Assembly: GCF_025449215.1 (NCBI RefSeq)
Contig: NZ_CP104900.1
Span: forward strand, 4,464,001-4,528,000
Length of the DNA stretch: 64,000 nucleotides
Direction of reading: 5' to 3'
Source of the DNA: Shewanella seohaensis
Lineage (GTDB): Bacteria > Pseudomonadota > Gammaproteobacteria > Enterobacterales > Shewanellaceae
Of the stretch, positions 3,771-26,045 are shown in pieces (within the stretch, counting starts at the first letter, position 1; every line of letters begins with the position of its first letter). The translations under genes were made by a program, and so were the position numbers. The notes under the pieces were generated by a model, which was not told the origin of the DNA, ran no database searches, and worked only from the letters and a program-made list of their open reading frames with translations.

Positions 3771-5245
3771 ATGAAAGCGTCACTCCAGCTCAAACTGGGT
3801 CAACAGTTAACCATGACGCCACAACTTCAACAGGCCATTCGTCTGTTGCAATTGTCGTCATTGGAACTGCAGCAAGAGATCCAGCAAGCCTTAGACTCTA
3901 ATCCTCTTCTCGAGCTGGAAGAGGAGCAATTCGACGCGCCTACCGAACGTAAGCAAGATATCGCCGATACCGACTTTAGCGAAACGACGGCCCAACCACA
4001 GGAACAAGACAATTCCACCGTGGACATTGCCGAGTCGTTGACCAAAGAATCTCTGCCCGAAGAACTGCCCATGGACACCACTTGGGATGAAGTCTTTACC
4101 GCCTCGCCAAACTCAGGTTCTGGTGCCAGCCGTGAAGATGACATGCCCTTCCAAGGGGAAACCAGTGAAGGCCTGTACGAACATTTAGAATGGCAGAAAA
4201 ACCTCACGCCCTTCTCTGAAACCGACTTAGCCATCGCCACCGCGATTATTGATGCCATCGACGATCAAGGTTATCTCACTCAAAGTACTGAAGATATCCT
4301 CGAGGCCATGGGCAATCCAGAGATTGAACTGGATGAAGTCGAAGCCGTACTCAAGCGTATTCAACACTTCGATCCCGTTGGTGTCGCCGCAAGGGATTTA
4401 AGCGAATGTCTGCTTATCCAACTCTCCCATTTTTCGCCGGATACCCCACACCTCGAAAACGCCCGCATGTTGATCAAAGATCATTTAGATCTGATCGCTG
4501 CCCGCGACTTTAGGTTGTTGATGCGTAAGACCAAACTTAAAGAGGACGAGTTAAGGGACAGCATAGCGCTGATCCAAACCTTAAACCCTCGCCCCGGTTT
4601 GCTCATCACCCCTGTTGATGAAGAATATGTCATCCCCGATGTATCGGTGTCGAAGAAAAACGGTCGCTGGGTGGTCGAGTTAAATCCAGACTGCATGCCA
4701 AAAATCAATGTTAATCAGCAATATGCAGCCATGGCACGCAGCACCAAAAGCCAAGCCGATAGCCAATTTATCCGCGGGCATCTGCAAGAAGCCAAGTGGT
4801 TTATCAAAAGCCTTGAAAGCCGTAACGAAACACTGCTCAAAGTGGCAAACTGCATAGTGCAATATCAACAGGGCTTCTTCGAATACGGTGAAGAAGCCAT
4901 GAAACCTATGGTCCTGAACGATATCGCCGAGGCGGTAGAAATGCATGAGTCCACCATTTCACGGGTGACCACACAAAAATACATGCATACCCCAAAGGGA
5001 CTTTTTGAACTAAAATATTTCTTCTCAAGCCACGTCGGGACTGATGATGGCGGTGAGTGCTCATCCACGGCAATCAGAGCCTTCATTAAGAAGCTAGTTG
5101 CTGCGGAAAACCAGAAAAAGCCATTAAGCGACAGCAAGATGGCACAGCTTCTGGCAGAACAGGGAATTAACGTTGCGCGCAGAACCATTGCGAAGTACCG
5201 AGAAGCGATGCTTATTCCCCTTCCAATCAGCGTAAAAGTTTATAG
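3771..5245 (+). CDS. rpoN: RNA polymerase sigma-54 factor RpoN, frame broken near its 3' end
   Basis: Sigma-54, which directs RNA polymerase to -24/-12 promoters under enhancer-binding activators. The N-terminal glutamine-rich region I ([20 protein letters not shown]), the acidic region II, the core-binding and HTH regions, and the C-terminal RpoN box ([12 protein letters not shown]) are all present. As given, the frame runs past the normal end and joins the next gene, hpf, in a 596-codon ORF. Adding one C to the run at 5217-5220 restores the usual tail ([10 protein letters not shown] and a stop at 5243-5245), giving 491 residues, the normal size. The fusion is therefore most likely a one-base deletion or sequencing error rather than a real chimera. 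Confidence 0.93.
5217..5220 (+). other. Frameshift site in rpoN (C run short by one)
   Basis: The four-C run must be five C for rpoN to end with its conserved tail. Without it the frame reads through the spacer into hpf. Confidence 0.8.
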
Positions 5246-5273
5246 CCTAAAGTGGAAATCGGAGGACGTTTAT

Positions 5274-5561
5274 ATGCAAATAAACCTGAGTGGACACCAT
5301 ATCGAGATTACTGAATCGTTACGGGCTTATGTTGAGGAAAAGTTTTCAAAACTTGAACGTCATTTCGATCAGATCAATAATGTGCACGTTGTGCTCAATG
5401 TTGAGAAAATGCAACAAATTGCCGAAGCGAGAATCAACCTCACCGGTGGTGAAGTCTTCGCGACTTCAGAGCATGCAGATATGTATGCTGCCATAGACGT
5501 CCTGATTGACAAGCTCGATCGTCAGGTCATTAAACACAAAGAGAAGTTAACTAAACATTAA
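5274..5561 (+). CDS. hpf: Ribosome hibernation promoting factor HPF
   Basis: Small ribosome-associated factor of the HPF/RaiA (YhbH) family, which promotes 70S dimerisation in stationary phase. The start is set by a strong GGAGG at 5261-5265 before ATG 5274, giving 95 residues beginning [13 protein letters not shown]. The conserved '[19 protein letters not shown]' helix and the beta-strands typical of the family follow. In the raw frame it appears as the tail of rpoN because of the base missing at 5217-5220. The position between rpoN and ptsN is the standard one. Confidence 0.94.
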
Positions 5562-5563
5562 CG

Positions 5564-6007
5564 ATGGAACTTCGTACCATCCTGCGGCCGGAGTGCACAA
5601 CCTGCGCCACTCCGGGCAGTAAGAAAAAGGTACTGGAGCTTATCAGCGACTTAGCCGCTGTCCAGTACCCCACCCTCTCCTCTCAAGAGATTTTTGAAAG
5701 CCTAGTGGCTCGAGAAAAGATGGGCAGCACAGGTATAGGTAACGGCATCGCCATTCCACATGGTCGATTAACCGATATAACACAACCCATAGCCATATTG
5801 GTGAAATGTGAGGAGCCGATAGCCTTTGATGCTATCGATAAACAACCTGTCGACATTTTATTTGCGCTGCTGGTGCCTGCTGACCAATGTCAACAGCACT
5901 TAAGCACTTTGTCCTGCATGGCTGAAAAGCTCAGCGACAAACAAATATTGAAGCAATTGCGCAAGACGCATGATGAAACGGAACTCTATCAGGTAATCAC
6001 TGGATGA
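5564..6007 (+). CDS. ptsN: PTS IIA-Ntr regulatory protein PtsN
   Basis: Phosphoacceptor EIIA of the nitrogen-related phosphotransferase system (PtsP-NPr-PtsN). It regulates potassium transport and other processes rather than sugar import. The 147 residues form one PTS EIIA type-2 domain, with the phospho-accepting histidine in AIPHGR (about residue 66) and the family motif [13 protein letters not shown]. The N-terminus is cysteine-rich (CTTCATPG), which I have not seen as typical. It starts three bases after hpf and overlaps rapZ by four, with npr just beyond, so three Ntr-PTS-linked genes are together. Confidence 0.95.
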
Positions 6008-6857
6008 AACTGGTCATAGTGTCAGGGCGCTCAGGCTCAGGCAAATCGGTCGCACTAAGAGTGCTTGAAGATCTCGGCTACTATTGTGTCGATAATCTTC
6101 CGTTGCCGCTGATTGGCAGCTTACTCGAACAGCTCAAGGGCAGTAACGATCTCGTCGCCATCAGCGTCGACGTGCGTAACCTGCCGGAGCAAGACAAGGT
6201 ACTCGTCAAACAGCTCGCAAGCCTGCCAGAGGGCACTGAACTTACCAGCTTCTTCTTAAATTCCAGCGATAAAGTACTGTTAAAGCGCTACAGCGAGACT
6301 CGGCGCTTACATCCCTTATCTAAGAGCCGAGTATCACTGCAAGAAGCCATCAAACTTGAAGGAAAATTGCTCGAGCCCCTGTCACAGCAGATGGATCACT
6401 ACATAGATACCTCGAATCTGAATATCTATGAACTCAGCGACCAAGTGCGGCAAATCCTGCTTGGCAGTGTCGATAAGGAACTGGTGATCAACTTCGAGTC
6501 CTTCGGTTTTAAGCATGGTATGCCAACCGAAGCCGACTTTATGTTTGATGTGCGCTTTTTACCCAATCCCCATTGGGAACCCGAGCTGCGCCCCTAACCG
6601 GCTTAGATGAACCCGTTGCCGAGTTTTTAAATCGCCAGCCGCTGGTCAATAAGTTCATCTGGCAAATCGAGAATTTACTCGAGACTTGGTTACCTCACTT
6701 AGAGCGTAATAATCGCAGCTATCTGACCATCGCCATCGGCTGTACCGGCGGCCAACACAGATCGGTTTACGTGGCCGAACAGCTAGCTAAACGCTTTAGC
6801 AACGGCAAACACAAAGTGAATGCCCGCCACCGAGAGTTAAGCCATGCCAAAGCTTGA
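6004..6857 (+). CDS. rapZ: RNase adapter RapZ, interrupted by a single-base frameshift
   Basis: RNA-binding adapter that presents the sRNA GlmZ to RNase E and so controls glucosamine-6-phosphate synthase. The N-terminal half has Walker [14 protein letters not shown] and the family motif [10 protein letters not shown]. The C-terminal half has [19 protein letters not shown] and a basic tail ([10 protein letters not shown]). As given, the frame stops at 6595-6597 right after PHWEPELRP, and the rest continues in another frame. Adding one C to the run 6591-6594 gives exactly 284 residues, the E. coli length, reading [14 protein letters not shown] across the join. A -1 slip on the C run would give the same product. 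A sequencing error, a true mutation or slippage are all possible. Confidence 0.9.
6591..6594 (+). other. Frameshift site in rapZ (C run short by one)
   Basis: The in-frame codons CGC CCC TAA create a stop. One extra C, or a ribosomal -1 slip on the C run, reads through to LTGLDEP and the full C-terminal domain. Confidence 0.8.
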
Positions 6858-7119
6858 GCGCCAAATCACCATCTGCAATAAACTCGGTTTACATGCCCGC
6901 GCCGCGACAAAGCTCGTGGTGTTGGCCTCAGAGTTTGATGCCAGCATTACGCTGATCCAAGGTGAAAAACAGGCCTCTGCCGCCAGTGTTTTAGGACTAC
7001 TCATGCTGGAAACCGGTATGGGTAAAACCATTACCCTGATTGCCGAAGGCCCAGATGCGGAGCCCGCTCTCAATGCCATTTGCGCGCTTATCGACGCTAA
7101 GTTCGACGAAGCCTGCTAA
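6844..7119 (+). CDS. ptsO: Phosphocarrier protein NPr (PtsO)
   Basis: HPr-like phosphocarrier of the nitrogen PTS, passing phosphate from PtsP to PtsN. The 91 residues hold the HPr active site with phospho-histidine in [12 protein letters not shown] (His17). The regulatory serine region appears as [14 protein letters not shown], where the HPr-kinase serine context is altered as usual in NPr. It overlaps the 3' end of rapZ by 14 bases in another frame. It closes the rpoN-hpf-ptsN-rapZ-npr operon. Confidence 0.95.
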
Positions 7120-7329
7120 TTGCCTCGACATCTCATCTCTATGCCCCCTACAGCTATTCAGTACCCTGTTTGGTTTTGATTTCAGCACCTTATACCAGTA
7201 AAACACATTTGTGACTCGACGCCCTCCCGTGCGCTCAATTACAATATACTGCTGCGCTTTGGCTTAAGTCCTTTGGCTTAAGTCCTCAACAGCCAAACGC
7301 CCCATCCACGTCGCCACCTTGGAGGAAAC
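7120..7329. other. npr-mgtE intergenic with a 14-bp tandem duplication
   Basis: A spacer of 210 bases with no ORF of interest. About 7258-7285 holds two adjacent copies of tttggcttaagtcc. I do not see an M-box magnesium riboswitch here. A GGAGG ribosome binding site sits at about 7321 before mgtE. Confidence 0.5.
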
Positions 7330-8694
7330 ATGCCTGTAGAAGCCTCAGACAGTTTACAAGTCGAACAACGTCTCGACCAACTGAGCCATGCCCTCAATAG
7401 CGGTATGTTTGTGCATGTCAGGCAAATGCTGCAAAACATGGCGGCGTCGGATATCGCATTGATTCTAGAGTCCTCGCCCCCTAAAGCGCGGCAAGTGCTA
7501 TGGCAACTTATCGATCAAGATCAGCTCGGGGATATTCTCGATGAACTCAGTGAAGAGTTAAAAGACCCGCTGATCCGCGCCATGAGCCCTGAACGGGTCG
7601 CCAAGGCTACCGCCAGTATGGATACGGACGATCTCGCTTATATCCTGCGAAGCTTGCCGGATACCGTCTATAAGCAAGTATTGCAGTCTATGAGCCTGCA
7701 AAACCGCCAGCGGGTCGAGCAAGCGCTCTCCTACCCCGATGAAACCGCGGGCAGCCTAATGAACACAGATACTGTGACCTTAAGGCCCGATGTAAATATC
7801 GATGTGGTACTGCGTTATTTGCGCCAACGGGGCAACCTGCCCGACACCACTGACACCTTATACGTGGTGGATAAGCACGATCGCGTACTCGGCGGGGTCA
7901 AACTTGCGGATCTGCTCACCTGCGATCCCAATACTCATATCAGCAGCATTATCGATACTGATATTGAGAGCATTCCCGTGGGCATGTCCGACAGCGAAGT
8001 AGCACAGCTGTTCGAGCGCCATGACTGGGTATCTGCGCCAGTGGTCGACAGTGAGGGCAAATTACTCGGGCGTATCACCATCGATGACGTGGTGGATGTT
8101 ATCCGTGAAGACGCCGAGCACTCCATGATGGGGATGGCGGGGATGGACGATGATGAAGACACCTTCGCCCCTGTGGTAAAGAGTACTTTCCGCCGCTCAC
8201 TCTGGCTGACGATTAACCTGTTTGCCGCCCTGCTGGCGGCCTCTGTCAGCAATATGTTTGAAGGCACAATCGAACAATTCGCCACGATTGCGATTTTAAT
8301 GACGATTGTACCGAGCATGGGCGGGGTCGCGGGTAATCAAACCTTAGCCCTAGTGATCCGCGGGATTGCCTTAGGCCATATTGGCCAGAGCAATGCTCGC
8401 TGGCTGATTGGCAAAGAACTCGCCATTGGCTTTTTGAACGGCCTCATGTGGTCGATTTTGGTGTTTATCGCGGTATTAGTTTGGAAAGATGATATGGCGC
8501 TTGCCAGCCTGATTGGCGGCGCAATGCTCATCAATATGACAGTAGCAGGACTGGCTGGCGCCAGTATTCCGCTGATCTTAAAACGCTTGAAAGTGGATCC
8601 GGCGTTAGCGGGCGGTATGGTGCTCACCACTGTCACCGATGTCATTGGCCTGTTTGCCTTCTTAGGATTAGCGACCCTGTATTTAATGCACTAG
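7330..8694 (+). CDS. mgtE: Magnesium transporter MgtE
   Basis: Homodimeric Mg2+ channel of the inner membrane, gated by cytoplasmic Mg2+. The 454 residues have the family order. A superhelical N domain (about 20-130) has the SLPDTVYKQVLQSM repeats and YPDETAGSLMNTDTVTL. A pair of CBS domains (about 135-255) follows, and five transmembrane helices start near 285. The pore-lining segment VGGVAGNQTLALVIRG-like 'GGVAGNQTLALVIRGIALG' and the ion-site region VTDVIGLFAFLGLA are both present. A terminator follows at once, so it is probably a single-gene unit. Confidence 0.95.
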   Translation: MPVEASDSLQVEQRLDQLSHALNSGMFVHVRQMLQNMAASDIALILESSPPKARQVLWQLIDQDQLGDILDELSEELKDPLIRAMSPERVAKATASMDTDDLAYILRSLPDTVYKQVLQSMSLQNRQRVEQALSYPDETAGSLMNTDTVTLRPDVNIDVVLRYLRQRGNLPDTTDTLYVVDKHDRVLGGVKLADLLTCDPNTHISSIIDTDIESIPVGMSDSEVAQLFERHDWVSAPVVDSEGKLLGRITIDDVVDVIREDAEHSMMGMAGMDDDEDTFAPVVKSTFRRSLWLTINLFAALLAASVSNMFEGTIEQFATIAILMTIVPSMGGVAGNQTLALVIRGIALGHIGQSNARWLIGKELAIGFLNGLMWSILVFIAVLVWKDDMALASLIGGAMLINMTVAGLAGASIPLILKRLKVDPALAGGMVLTTVTDVIGLFAFLGLATLYLMH

Positions 8695-10524: not shown

Positions 10525-11017
10525 TTATGACCTCATAACATGATTGATGATGGTATTTGCCCGCCAAAAGGCAAAGGGCGTGGCAAGTCGCCAAAGGACA
10601 CCATAAAAAATCGCAGTATATAAGCATTCTCTTTTGAGACAATCTTTAATCGCTTCTTTGCTCAGTTTATGACTGATTCAATCGAAAACAACACTAAATG
10701 AAAACATCTTAAGATCATCTGCACAACATTTAGAGTAAAAGCACTGAAATAGTGCAAGCTGCACCGTTTCAGACATGGCTTAAAAAAGTTACCGTTTGAA
10801 ACATTTTAATAAGTTTATGATTTTTAATAAAAATATAAATTTATAAATGTTGGCACGGATTTTACATACTAATAAATAGGTAGAAGAGCAGAGGCGCTCA
10901 AAGCCACTCACTCAACACCTTATGTAAGCTGTTTGACATCAATGGACGTTAATCTAAGTGCCCGTTGTGAGGCATGTAATCGAAGCACAATCCCTAAGTG
11001 GATTGAGGAGAATAGAG
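10525..11017. other. AT-rich intergenic upstream of the HTH/tandem-RNA locus
   Basis: The ~490 bases carry no coding signal. They contain an AT-rich block (about 10800-10850), the sigma54-like promoter listed separately, and an untranslated leader of about 140 bases ending in a strong ribosome binding site. Confidence 0.6.
10850..10866 (+). promoter_or_regulatory. Candidate sigma-54 promoter
   Basis: The stretch reads TTGGCACGGATTTTACA. The -24 element TTGGCACG is a perfect fit to the RpoN consensus. The -12 element is TTACA instead of TTGCA, so the GG-N10-GC rule is broken at one base. A start near 10877 would transcribe the short ORF, the HTH gene and the tandem RNAs. The call rests on sequence match only. 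Confidence 0.45.
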
Positions 11018-11116
11018 ATGAAACATCTGATGAAACTTATTAGTCATTGTCGCCACGAATGGTTGTCCCTGCGCCACCTAGGACATAGCCAGTGGGATAT
11101 AGAACAGCGTCATTAA
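11018..11116 (+). CDS. Small ORF, 32 residues, function unknown
   Basis: The ATG at 11018 follows an excellent ribosome binding site (gaggagaatagag). The ORF encodes a 32-residue peptide that starts MKHLMKLISHCRHEWLSLRH and is rich in histidine and basic residues, ending at TAA 11114-11116. No known family is recognised. It may be a translated leader or a small regulator. It lies 63 bases before the helix-turn-helix gene on the same strand and probably shares its transcript. Support comes only from the strong ribosome binding site and position. Confidence 0.5.
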   Translation: MKHLMKLISHCRHEWLSLRHLGHSQWDIEQRH

Positions 11117-11179
11117 TCACCAAGGGAAGCACCGAAAGAACCAGCAAGCAGACAGAACATAGAGTAAGAGGGATAACCC

Positions 11180-11413
11180 ATGGGAATCGCCAATCATAGT
11201 CTTAAACCTGACGTTATTTTTGAAGTGAAAGTCAAAGGCAGATTACTCTCTGATGTCGCACGACAGTACGGTATTTCGGCTAAAGCGGTTTACCAATGGG
11301 TAAGAGAAAGTGAGCAACAGCCGCAGCAAAGGGAGTGCGCTTTAATCTCTGAAATTGCGCAGTTGCAGAAACGTATTAAACAGCTAAACAGTGAATTACG
11401 CACTATAGGTTGA
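11180..11413 (+). CDS. Small HTH protein related to IS3-type OrfA
   Basis: A 77-residue protein with a transposase-OrfA/homeodomain-like helix-turn-helix (about residues 20-45, LSDVARQYGISAKAVYQWV). A short leucine-zipper-like helix follows (about 53-73, ISEIAQLQKRIKQLNSEL). This is the layout of IS3/IS911 OrfA DNA-binding subunits, but there is no OrfB transposase and no terminal inverted repeats nearby. It may therefore be a domesticated DNA- or RNA-binding protein. An AGAGGG ribosome binding site precedes ATG 11180. The tandem RNA array begins 25 bases after the stop, and a functional link is inferred from this arrangement alone. Confidence 0.75.
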   Translation: MGIANHSLKPDVIFEVKVKGRLLSDVARQYGISAKAVYQWVRESEQQPQQRECALISEIAQLQKRIKQLNSELRTIG

Positions 11414-11438
11414 GGTAACCTCGCCCAGTGCCCTTATC

Positions 11439-11540
11439 GACAAGGCCGGACCCCATTGCATATTGCCCTGTAGGTCTAACGCGGTATGAAAGTTGTGCTA
11501 AAAACAATAATAACAGCGCCCTTTTACGTCCGGCCTTGTC
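11439..11540 (+). ncRNA. Tandem structured RNA unit A (type 1)
   Basis: A ~102-base element closed by a perfect 12-bp stem: gacaaggccgga at 11439-11450 against tccggccttgtc at 11529-11540. The interior holds acaataataacagcg, which recurs in unit B. There is no ORF. The strand is inferred from the flanking gene order. Confidence 0.65.
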
Positions 11541-11576
11541 ATCCAATAAATAGAATGAGTGCTCAATAACAGTTTA

Positions 11577-11676
11577 GACAGGGTCGGATGGGTATCTATT
11601 ATCGCTCCCCAACGACCTAAGATATAAATCGTACAAATAACAATAATAACTGTGCAGTTTACTATCCGGCTCTGTC
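11577..11676 (+). ncRNA. Tandem structured RNA unit B (type 1)
   Basis: A ~100-base element closed by gacagggtcgga (11577-11588) and tccggctctgtc (11665-11676). Relative to unit A the stem changes keep pairing through G-U wobbles. The interior acaataataactgtg matches unit A. The pairing has been kept while the sequence diverged. Confidence 0.65.
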
Positions 11677-11722
11677 AACTTAATGCTTAAAGGGTATGCA
11701 ATAGCAAAAGAGGAAAGGTTTT

Positions 11723-11815
11723 GACAAGGCTTTAGAGGGAGCTATCTCCCCCAAAGATCAAATATGTGAATTGTGCTCCCCAAGTCACGAACATATTACC
11801 CTCTTGGGTCTTGTC
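11723..11815 (+). ncRNA. Tandem structured RNA unit C (type 2)
   Basis: The outer stem gacaag / cttgtc (11723-11728 with 11810-11815) is followed by gaggg / ccctc. An inner stem pairs aatatgt with acatatt. It contains ctcccccaaagat, shared exactly with unit D. The preceding aaaggttttgacaaggc resembles the lead-in of D. Confidence 0.62.
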
Positions 11816-11902
11816 CTTTTATTCACGGATCAAAGACGATCCAGCGCTAGACTAGGATAGCGCGCCATGGATGGCTGTGTTGCTTGCAACACCAAAGGTT
11901 TC

Positions 11903-11992
11903 GGCAAGGCTCGAGGGAGTTGTCTCCCCCAAAGATTAATATGTCGATAGGGCTCTGTGACCCATCAATATATTTCTCCCTTAGGTCTTGTC
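11903..11992 (+). ncRNA. Tandem structured RNA unit D (type 2)
   Basis: Outer stem ggcaag / cttgtc, then gagggag / ctccctt, and an inner stem gataggg / cccatc. The ctcccccaaagat block matches C. The stem is longer in D than in C, with paired changes on both sides. Confidence 0.62.
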
Positions 11993-12087
11993 CTTTTATT
12001 GAGTGGTTCAATGGAAAGGAAGGGGCTGAGTGCCCATGCCAAGGACGGCAATGCCACTGTTTTTATGACTGCATCGAAAGGATTTAT

Positions 12088-12124
12088 CCAATAAAAAGAC
12101 GCCTATCTGGCGTCTTTTTATTGG
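12088..12124. terminator. Strong bidirectional terminator after the RNA array
   Basis: A 16-bp perfect stem (ccaataaaaagacgcc / ggcgtctttttattgg) with T runs on both strands. It ends the 10.9-12.1 kb transcript and also the RIO-kinase gene from the other side. Confidence 0.93.
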
Positions 12125-17506: not shown

Positions 17507-18910
17507 TTACTTATAAGTTGCTTCGCGTTTTTTCGCTTCGGCATCCCACTTAGGTAAAGTGTCTTTCTTGAATGCTTCTTTCTCTGCATTCATCTTGTCC
17601 ATATCCATACCCAGTGCAGCTTGAGCTTTCGCTTTGGTAGAGATATCTGGGATAGCAACAGCGTCAGTCACGCCTTTCTTCGCCAGTAATTGGGCTAATT
17701 TCACACGGGCATCGGCCGCTTTATCAACCGCAGTACCTAGGATACGCAGTGCTTCTTCTGGAGCGTGAGCCGCTACACCGTGAGAAGCAATCGCGAAGTC
17801 CCAGCGCCATTGAGCATGACGGATATCAGTCAGGATTGGCTTCATTTCGGCTTCAGTTGCACCTACTTCCCACGCTTTAGCCGCTTCGAAGTGTGCTTTC
17901 ACTAATTGACCTTCGGCACGAGCTTTCAGCTCTTTCACTTTGGCATAACGTTCTTTAGTGATGCCTTCTAAGAACTCTTTGCTTTGGCTATGGCAAGTTG
18001 CACAGGTTTCATCGAAGCGATCGAATGGGTTACCCACTTTATGATCTGTGTACTTACGACCTTTGTCGTTAGTCACTTTAGGCATGTGACAGTCAACACA
18101 GCTCACATCGTTCTTACCATGTACGCCCAGTTTCCAAGTTTCATAACCTGGGTGTTGTGCTTTCAGCATTGGAGTCTTAGACAGTGAATGAGTCCAGTCA
18201 GAAAACTCGATTGCATCGTAGTAAGCTTCCATTTGTTCAACAGTGGTACCTGAATCCCAAGGGAATTTTACGAAACCTTTGCGGTCGTCTTTCTTCTCGA
18301 AATAGTATTCAACGTGACACTGACCGCAAACCATAGATTGCTTGTCTTTCTTCGAAGCTTTGTCGAATGGAGTGCCAATAGTTTCCATTGCGCGCTCAGC
18401 GAATGGACGTGAAATACGCAGTTTTGGGGTGCCTTTTTCGTGGCAGTCGCTACAACCGATAGTGTTAACGACTTCTGGGCCACCTTTAGCCCACTTGCCT
18501 TTGAAGTAACCGTCTTCGCCTTGTTCTTCGATCAGGCGAGGTACGTCAGGGCTCTTACAGCTCCAACATGCCATTGGCATTGGGCCGTCTTCAGCATTGG
18601 CTGGTGCGCCAGTACGTAGCGTGTTACGTACGTCAGTCACGGCATACATGTGGCCGCGAGGTGCGTTGTAGTCTTTTGCGAAACCATAACCGGCCCACAG
18701 AATCACTAAGCTAGGATCGCCCGCTAATGCGTCGGTGATCTCTTCGCTTTTCGCGGTGTCATGCCAGCTATTGTATTGATTAGCAAACTTATCTTTGTAT
18801 ACTTCGTTGCGTGGCTCGGTCTTATCGCTCGCCATCGCACCCGCCGCCATGAAGCTCGCGGCAACCAATGCACTCAGTGCAAAGGACTTACCTGTCATCT
18901 TCTTCATCAT
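17507..18910 (-). CDS. nrfA: Ammonia-forming cytochrome c nitrite reductase NrfA
   Basis: Periplasmic pentaheme enzyme reducing nitrite to ammonium with six electrons. I start at the ATG at 18910 ([15 protein letters not shown]), because GGAGATGAG lies just before it; an upstream in-frame ATG at 18928 would put that site inside the gene. A signal peptide ends at ALA-type AGAMAS. Heme motifs are CWSCK (the lysine-ligated catalytic heme), CSDCH, CGQCH, CVDCH and CATCH. Length is 467 residues, as in S. oneidensis NrfA. There are no nrfBCD genes beside it; in Shewanella electrons come from CymA. It is divergent from narQP, its likely regulators. Confidence 0.97.
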
Positions 18911-18990
18911 CTCATCTCCGTGTTGCATTATTTTAATAAATCACGACATCTCCAAAGCCAAAGTTAGTGGCTTAAACCCTCCAAAGACAT

Positions 18991-25814: not shown

Positions 25815-26045
25815 ATACGCACCCCAATAGAAGGGAAACAGCAATCGTCACCAGAAGCTCTCCACCAATTACAGGTGACAATCGTTAGGATTCAGCCTAA
25901 GCGACCGACATAAACATGCAGCAACCACATCTATGCCTCGGCGTTAATCTCCCTCATCAATCATCGCTGGAGTTTGTGCTCCTCTGACTGACTACCTAGT
26001 TAACGCTCCTCTTCTGTTCCTTTCCGCCGGAAAGGGACGAAAAAA
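25815..26045 (-). ncRNA. Lysine riboswitch (L box) upstream of lysC
   Basis: Read on the minus strand, the leader contains the L-box landmarks in order: agaggagcg with agtcagtcag, gatgaggga, aacgccgagg, tcggtcgcttaggctgaa, then a tgtaattggtggagagcttctggtgac-like stretch (each read across the family consensus). An expression platform with an alternative hairpin (about 25760-25840, ggtgcg...gcacc) precedes the lysC ribosome binding site. This places lysC and the downstream hydrolase under lysine control. Confidence 0.88.

Follow-up and report, generated by a model that had tools for sequence, protein, structure and literature searches.

A candidate family of tandem structured RNAs encoded beside a peptide gene and an orphan HTH gene in Shewanella

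In a stretch of 64,000 nucleotides from Shewanella seohaensis (contig NZ_CP104900.1, positions 4,464,001 to 4,528,000; here called the window), we found a locus which looks like one member of an undescribed family of regulatory RNAs present in many Shewanella species. By our estimate, it is nearly certain that the operon and the RNA family are real. An initial annotation, made from the letters of the window, had proposed an RNA-centered system under structural selection; such a system is found beside an HTH gene in many species of the genus, and it has no Rfam match. The four stem-closed units of that annotation lie at 11439-11540, 11577-11676, 11723-11815, and 11903-11992, exactly as it had placed them, and they do form two pairs, with CAATAATAAC common to A and B and CTCCCCCAAAGAT common to C and D. 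To these we add a conserved coding peptide, a sigma-54-like element, a C-rich loop in unit B, and conserved flanks.

Layout of the locus

The features of the locus, in window positions, are the following:

10850-10868, plus strand: promoter-like element TTGGCACG-N4-TTACATA, resembling a sigma-54 -24/-12 promoter
10867-10883, no strand: imperfect inverted repeat directly after the promoter-like element, candidate HTH operator
11018-11116, plus strand: 32-codon peptide gene with coding conservation and the conserved ending GxSQWD-[VIL]-E
11180-11413, plus strand: gene of an orphan HTH_Tnp_1 (IS3 OrfA-type) protein of 77 amino acids (PF01527, E = 3.3e-8)
11439-11540, plus strand: RNA unit A, with closing helix P1, P2, and P3 with an A-rich loop; its P2 loop is not C-rich; 13 orthologues
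11503-11514, plus strand: AACAAUAAUAAC in the P3 loop of A, (AAN)4, a candidate tract which we take to be Hfq distal-face-like
11577-11676, plus strand: RNA unit B, nearest of the four to the family consensus
11605-11612, plus strand: C-rich P2 loop of B (CUCCCCAA)
11639-11650, plus strand: AACAAUAAUAAC of unit B, in the A-rich loop of the third hairpin
11723-11815, plus strand: RNA unit C, with two C-rich segments (11748-11754 and 11776-11783); orthologues found
11816-11823, plus strand: CUUUUAUU, 3' flank of unit C, putative processing signal
11897-11902, plus strand: GGUUUC, 5' flank of unit D, putative processing signal
11903-11992, plus strand: RNA unit D, with one C-rich loop (11926-11932)
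12088-12124, no strand: perfect 16-bp inverted repeat, terminator-like, between the RNAs and a convergent RIO1-domain gene

The 1,275-base stretch is single-copy in its own 4.75-Mb genome, an apparent second match being an inverted repeat aligned with its own reverse strand. The initial annotation had ended the array with a very strong terminator; the perfect repeat at 12088-12124 is there, but it is absent from the list of our terminator scan. It had also noted the lack of a transposase, and there is indeed no orfB among the open reading frames listed around the HTH gene. No known Rfam family fits the units: against 4,227 families they fell below the gathering threshold, and at a loose threshold they came nowhere near any family's cutoff. 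The only match of the window in that search was a lysine riboswitch elsewhere (25847-26021, minus strand, 92.9 bits); a cytochrome c552 gene lies at 17507-18928 (minus strand, PF02335, E = 1.7e-188). Our literature searches returned no paper on the locus, although an entry in the Shewanella papers PMC5471319 and PMC2659441 may have escaped them.

Distribution in the genus

Our survey covered 97 Shewanella genomes, an even sample of a larger group. At the DNA level the locus has a match in 27 of them, and the HTH protein has one in 72 at an E value of ≤1e-3, the weak matches including ordinary IS3 genes. The best HTH locus of 67 of the 72 genomes (E up to 1.8e-6) was studied, and five weaker ones were left aside, one of which (G041) proved to hold the system. 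At least one locus among the 67 (L107) has no promoter-like element, peptide, or RNA and is probably unrelated. By strict stem and flank criteria, 50 of the 67 loci have RNA units: one unit in 29 loci, two in 8, three in 8, four in 4, and five in 1. The 17 loci with no strict unit comprise four which show one by eye or by model (L065, L073, L087, and L093), five which carry a different RNA (L100, L102, and L109 to L111), and eight in which none was seen. Those five and L246 have the promoter-like element, the peptide, and the HTH gene, and in this clade the downstream RNA has a C-rich hairpin, e.g., GCGCUCCCCCAAAGGCGC, with a terminator-like stem behind it. In three further loci (L112, L114, and L115), where the HTH homologues are distant (31 to 35%), the peptide ends in SQWEL and an element resembling TTGACAY-N5-TTGCATAC is present; we recognized no clear RNA unit there.

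Unit number can be high. Positions 4185 to 5128 of L068 hold a near-identical array of a 245-bp unit (RNA plus spacer) in 3.9 copies with 95% matches, evidently a recent amplification, and the covariance model R1 (see below) gave eight matches at an E value of ≤1 in L077.

The remaining 25 of the 97 genomes, those with no match to the window HTH protein, were searched with the promoter pattern, which matched in four. G073 is a true locus with a divergent HTH gene and three RNA units, and the matches in G084 and G093 are due to chance. G006 lacks the HTH gene (no match) and retains the promoter-like element, a peptide ending in GLSQWDVE, and A- and C-type units. The promoter-pattern search gave no sign of the locus in the other 21.

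Outside the genus, the system was not seen. A second model, R2, which also misses true loci within the genus (e.g., G073 with its three units), matched only Shewanella (16 of the 58 genomes searched from the family and 10 of the 295 from the order), and all 38 named HTH loci are from Shewanella. At an E value of ≤1e-13, the HTH protein matched outside the genus in one of the 295 order genomes, an ordinary IS3 element; at ≤1e-8, two of 23 family genomes from other genera matched (9.1e-12 and 5.8e-10).

Anatomy of the RNA units

The units share one plan, in which helix P1 closes the unit and hairpin P2 carries a CCCCA loop, e.g., CGCCCCCAACG, GUCCCCCAGC, and CUCCCCCAAAG; A and B of the window's clade have a third hairpin with the A-rich loop AACAAUAAUAAC. 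The P1 stem varies by clade (GACAAGG, GCAGAGG, GACAGGAGCG, GGCAAGGGTGTT, GGCAAGAAAAGTGGCT, and others). Among 98 stem-closed candidates, in whose selection the interior played no part, 70 display CCCCA in an apical loop of the minimum free energy fold (3.1 ± 1.5 when interiors are shuffled), 75 contain it anywhere inside (12.9 ± 3.1 shuffled), and 32 have (ARN)4 (5.8 ± 2.2 in shuffles). TGGGG, the reverse complement of the loop, is found in none of the 81 units having a flank signal. Unit A, whose CCCCA sits beside P1 outside any loop, and eight of the listed GCAGAGGC-type units have no C-rich loop.

The flanks are conserved as well. In 94 units preselected by CCCC or AATAA in the interior, a choice which leaves the flanks untouched, GTT[TCA] precedes the unit by at most 7 nt in 79 (background, 6%), and TTTAT or TTTTA follows within 9 nt in 56 (background, 3%). 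Compared with dinucleotide shuffles, A, B, C, and D fold on the plus strand with z-scores of -4.3, -5.5, -3.8, and -3.3, and on the reverse strand with -3.3, -2.0, -2.4, and -3.6, so that D is no better on the plus strand.

Structural conservation

A motif-free scan downstream of the HTH gene found 103 strong stem-closed units in 52 of the 67 loci, compared with 26 units in 22 loci upstream and 27 units in 22 loci far downstream (94 to 101 kb each). Evidence for selection on structure comes from P2, which was no criterion in choosing units. In a MAFFT alignment (A2) of 17 units from distant species, its seven pairs are 76.5% paired, compared with 27 to 49% for slid partners, and all seven have changed on both sides. 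None of 500 shuffles reached the paired percentage or the covariation score; these shuffles keep no relatedness, and the result is thus strong but not a probability. A scan for P2 hairpins with five perfect pairs gave 57 downstream against 18 upstream and 14 far downstream, with 10 on the reverse strand; this criterion was dropped as too strict, clear units with a mismatch being missed.

P1 is 91.1% paired with 11 of 14 pairs changed on both sides (94.7% paired in another alignment), but these figures, and the constancy of P1 pairs 3 and 4, are inflated because the scan behind alignments A1, A2, and A4 demanded at least seven P1 pairs and a start of G-N-C-A-R-R or GCAGAGG. P1 covariation was therefore set aside as the main proof and replaced by the P2 test and by stretches chosen by flanks. 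When 85 stretches were chosen by flanks and CCCCA alone, with the nearest flank on each side, 26 close by at least seven pairs, compared with 13.6 ± 2.6 (highest, 21) in 200 rounds in which the 3' sides were dealt anew.

For the hold-out model R1 we used 17 units from distant species (HTH proteins 36 to 55% identical), none of them belonging to the window's clade. Run on the whole window, both strands, with filters off, it placed B first (38.6 bits, E = 7.5e-7), A second (28.5 bits, E = 2e-4), and the reverse strand of A third (E = 0.047), all E values being rough. D scored 9.6 bits (E = 6.9) and C was absent from the matches; since R1 fails to recognize them, we place C and D in the family by their position, flanks, P1 ends, and C-rich loop.

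The initial annotation had read selection on RNA structure from stem changes among the four units of the window. This conclusion holds through the units of distant species, but the window's own clade shows almost no double-sided changes: none of 25 pairs in 21 aligned C and D units and 3 of 29 pairs in 13 A units. With so little change within the clade, the four units by themselves would not suffice, and the covariation argument rests on the distant species.

The peptide and HTH genes

The ending GxSQWD-[VIL]-E was found in 52 of the 67 loci, 47 by regular expression and 5 by eye. Among 12 clade members anchored on the motif, the peptide has a pN/pS of 0.32 and differences by codon position of 331/249/719; judged by this pattern, the 32-codon frame is a conserved coding peptide. 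A Pfam search placed it in no family. Its ending had led us to suspect kinship with DUF1127, which profile searches and hhalign ruled out: none of 25 peptides matches DUF1127 at an E value of ≤10 (HMMER filters drop most weak matches), and hhalign gave a probability of 0.2% against two DUF1127 proteins of G138. A search of 12 Shewanella genomes likewise gave no DUF1127 match. In 15 of the 67 loci the peptide is absent or was not recognized, and 11 of these 15 still carry an RNA unit.

The HTH gene has a pN/pS of 0.11 (14 clade members), and the tail of its protein has weak matches to coiled coils. The protein shares the HTH_Tnp_1 domain with OrfA of the IS3 family, and it matches the NCBIfam IS3 model at an E value of 7.7e-7, far under the model's cutoff. 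Unlike an IS3 insertion sequence, the window has no OrfB integrase frame beside OrfA, and the stretch is present once rather than in several copies. The window HTH protein scored 118.6 bits, compared with 53.8 for an ordinary IS3 orfA-orfB in G283.

Promoter-like element and chromosomal neighborhood

With a scoring matrix drawn from the same 67 loci, the promoter-like element scores at least 15 of 18.7 in 62 of them and in 2 of 63 control stretches, four loci having no control stretch. Its genus-wide form is TTGGCACR-N4-TTNCATA-like, and in its own genome the pattern has one exact match, the locus itself, and nine more at one mismatch. Classical sigma-54 promoters have a G before the conserved C. 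The 62 loci have A in 27, G in 16, C in 11, and T in 8 at this base, and because it is mostly not G, sigma-54 dependence of the putative promoter is only a guess. In the inverted repeat behind the element, arms of at least 5 bp occur in 20 of 62 loci, compared with about 5% of random stretches; the repeat is weak in the window itself.

The locus lies about 2 to 5 kb from a gene cluster (window 3771-8694, domains from profile matches) which we take to be rpoN-hpf-ptsN-rapZ-ptsO-mgtE. This proximity to the genes for sigma-54 and the small-RNA adaptor RapZ, together with the sigma-54-like element, may be more than chance. RpoN and HPF domains are found in one frame with no stop between (within 3771-5561), and rapZ is split over two frames (6004-6597 and 6573-6857); these may be natural changes or sequencing indels.

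Proposed mechanism and alternatives

From this anatomy, its conservation, and the selection seen on the hairpin, the loop, the flanks, and both reading frames, we infer a scheme for how the locus is transcribed and processed, how it involves Hfq, what it targets, and what the two proteins do. The locus would be an operon passed on by vertical inheritance and serving mainly to make tandem small RNAs. Transcription from the sigma-54-like promoter would yield a single RNA spanning the gene of the GxSQWDVE peptide, the HTH gene, and the units. It would be cut in the U-rich flanks (GUU[UCA] before, UUUAU after) by an endonuclease, probably RNase E, to release units of about 75 to 120 nt, a step which we consider likely. 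The C-rich loop would then pair with G-rich ribosome-binding sites in target mRNAs; such antisense action is plausible, and we are evenly divided on it. The A-rich segment and the U-rich tail would hold Hfq, a dependence which is plausible but which we hold with slightly less confidence. The number of units would set the dose, the HTH protein would repress its own operon, and the peptide may assist maturation. The operon's own ribosome-binding sites show no conserved TGGGG by eye. We regard this explanation as a whole, a Shewanella operon of tandem small RNAs cut from a precursor and aimed by their C-rich loops at ribosome-binding sites, as somewhat likelier true than false.

The RNAs look like the core of the system. 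Because the HTH gene was lost in G006 (one case) and the peptide in 11 loci with the RNAs kept, the data suggest that the RNAs work without either protein.

The units might instead be sponges for another RNA-binding protein, RapZ or a different one, rather than antisense RNAs. Tandem repetition and a constant loop would fit this, and the window locus is about 4 kb from rapZ; moreover, 12 Shewanella genomes contained no GlmZ above the Rfam cutoff, with one sub-threshold match (25.2 bits) in G006. Proximity to rapZ is weak evidence, though, and we know of no protein that reads CCCCA loops, so we consider a sponge unlikely.

Still less probable is that the units serve as decoys or partners of the HTH protein, in which a domesticated OrfA would bind both its operator and the RNA helices, the array titrating it. 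The strict units adjoin the HTH gene in the 50 loci that have them, and to this extent the HTH-RNA link of the initial annotation, drawn from position, extends to many species. The mechanistic pairing is weakened by G006, where RNAs, peptide, and promoter-like element persist with no HTH gene, so that the HTH homologue does not always co-occur with the units, as that annotation had asked. A decoy would also leave the C-rich loop and the flanks unexplained, and the constancy of P1 pairs 3 and 4 does not speak for it, C and A having been required at these pairs by the scan. We are just as doubtful of a regulatory ribonucleoprotein module made of a domesticated transposase HTH, a micropeptide, and the RNA array, in which a protein of the locus would read the RNA units, C-rich loops would address G-rich targets, and copy number, through tandem amplification, would tune the dose. 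If true, an insertion-sequence gene would have given rise to an RNA-array regulator peculiar to the genus.

The initial annotation had also considered derivation from a mobile element. The locus could be a cassette that moves or amplifies, with inverted repeats working at the level of DNA and an RNA of no function; the OrfA-type protein and the near-identical L068 array would agree with this. However, at least one of mgtE, ModA, and an OmpA-like gene is kept upstream in 52 of the 67 loci, and the chromosomal site therefore looks old and fixed. The locus had no match in plasmids (megablast) or phages (tblastn) and none was confirmed in viral contigs; the window has no orfB, and the stretch is single-copy in its own genome. 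P2 covaries with G-U pairs and the loop is strand specific, which also speaks against repeats acting as DNA, and we think such a cassette very improbable. A type I toxin-antitoxin-like unit, with a toxic peptide restrained by the RNAs, would account for a peptide of about 29 to 50 amino acids next to small RNAs, but it is hardly credible given the RNA unit in 11 of 15 loci with no recognized peptide and peptides which, by eye, are unlike membrane-spanning toxins.

Comparison with known systems

Shewanella is a model for metal respiration, and our literature searches found few small-RNA studies of the genus. A covarying RNA family which sits at one site in many species, is amplified in some, and is tied to a peptide predicts a testable posttranscriptional circuit, and three known systems bear on the proposed operon of tandem small RNAs.

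ChiX and MgrR are class II Hfq-dependent small RNAs, with an ARN-type A-rich segment and a U-rich 3' end. The Shewanella units have an ARN tract and a U-rich tail as well, a likeness in sequence features only; unlike ChiX and MgrR, the unit has several helices and is apparently released from a polycistronic precursor.

The Brt RNAs of Bartonella are 194 to 203 nt long, with one upstream of each HTH (Trp) gene (PMC5387305). In both systems, structured RNAs specific to a genus stand in tandem with DNA-binding HTH proteins, whereas Shewanella has short RNAs downstream of a single OrfA-type HTH gene.

The closest analogue, which on paper works alike, is CcaF1-CcsR1-4 (the CIN1 locus, cuckoo RNAs) of Rhodobacter and other Alphaproteobacteria. 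The CcsR RNAs have C-rich loops with a CCUCCUCCC-type motif; the Shewanella loops are also C-rich but read CCCCA. PMC10253847 describes a small RNA-binding DUF1127 protein cotranscribed with four small RNAs, RNase E processing, and an RpoHI/RpoHII promoter. In both systems a small protein gene is followed by tandem homologous RNAs, those of Shewanella known from sequence alone; downstream of the peptide gene, at least two strict units are present in 21 of the 67 loci and one in 29. The Shewanella locus differs in the HTH gene between the peptide gene and the RNAs, in the long P1 helix closing the units, in a promoter-like element which is sigma-54-like rather than of the RpoHI/RpoHII type, and in having been found so far only in Shewanella. 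Because the peptide gives no DUF1127 signal, we do not count the locus as a member of CcaF1-CcsR. This parallel between systems with no detected homology suggests that the combination of a small protein with an array of C-rich RNAs arose repeatedly.
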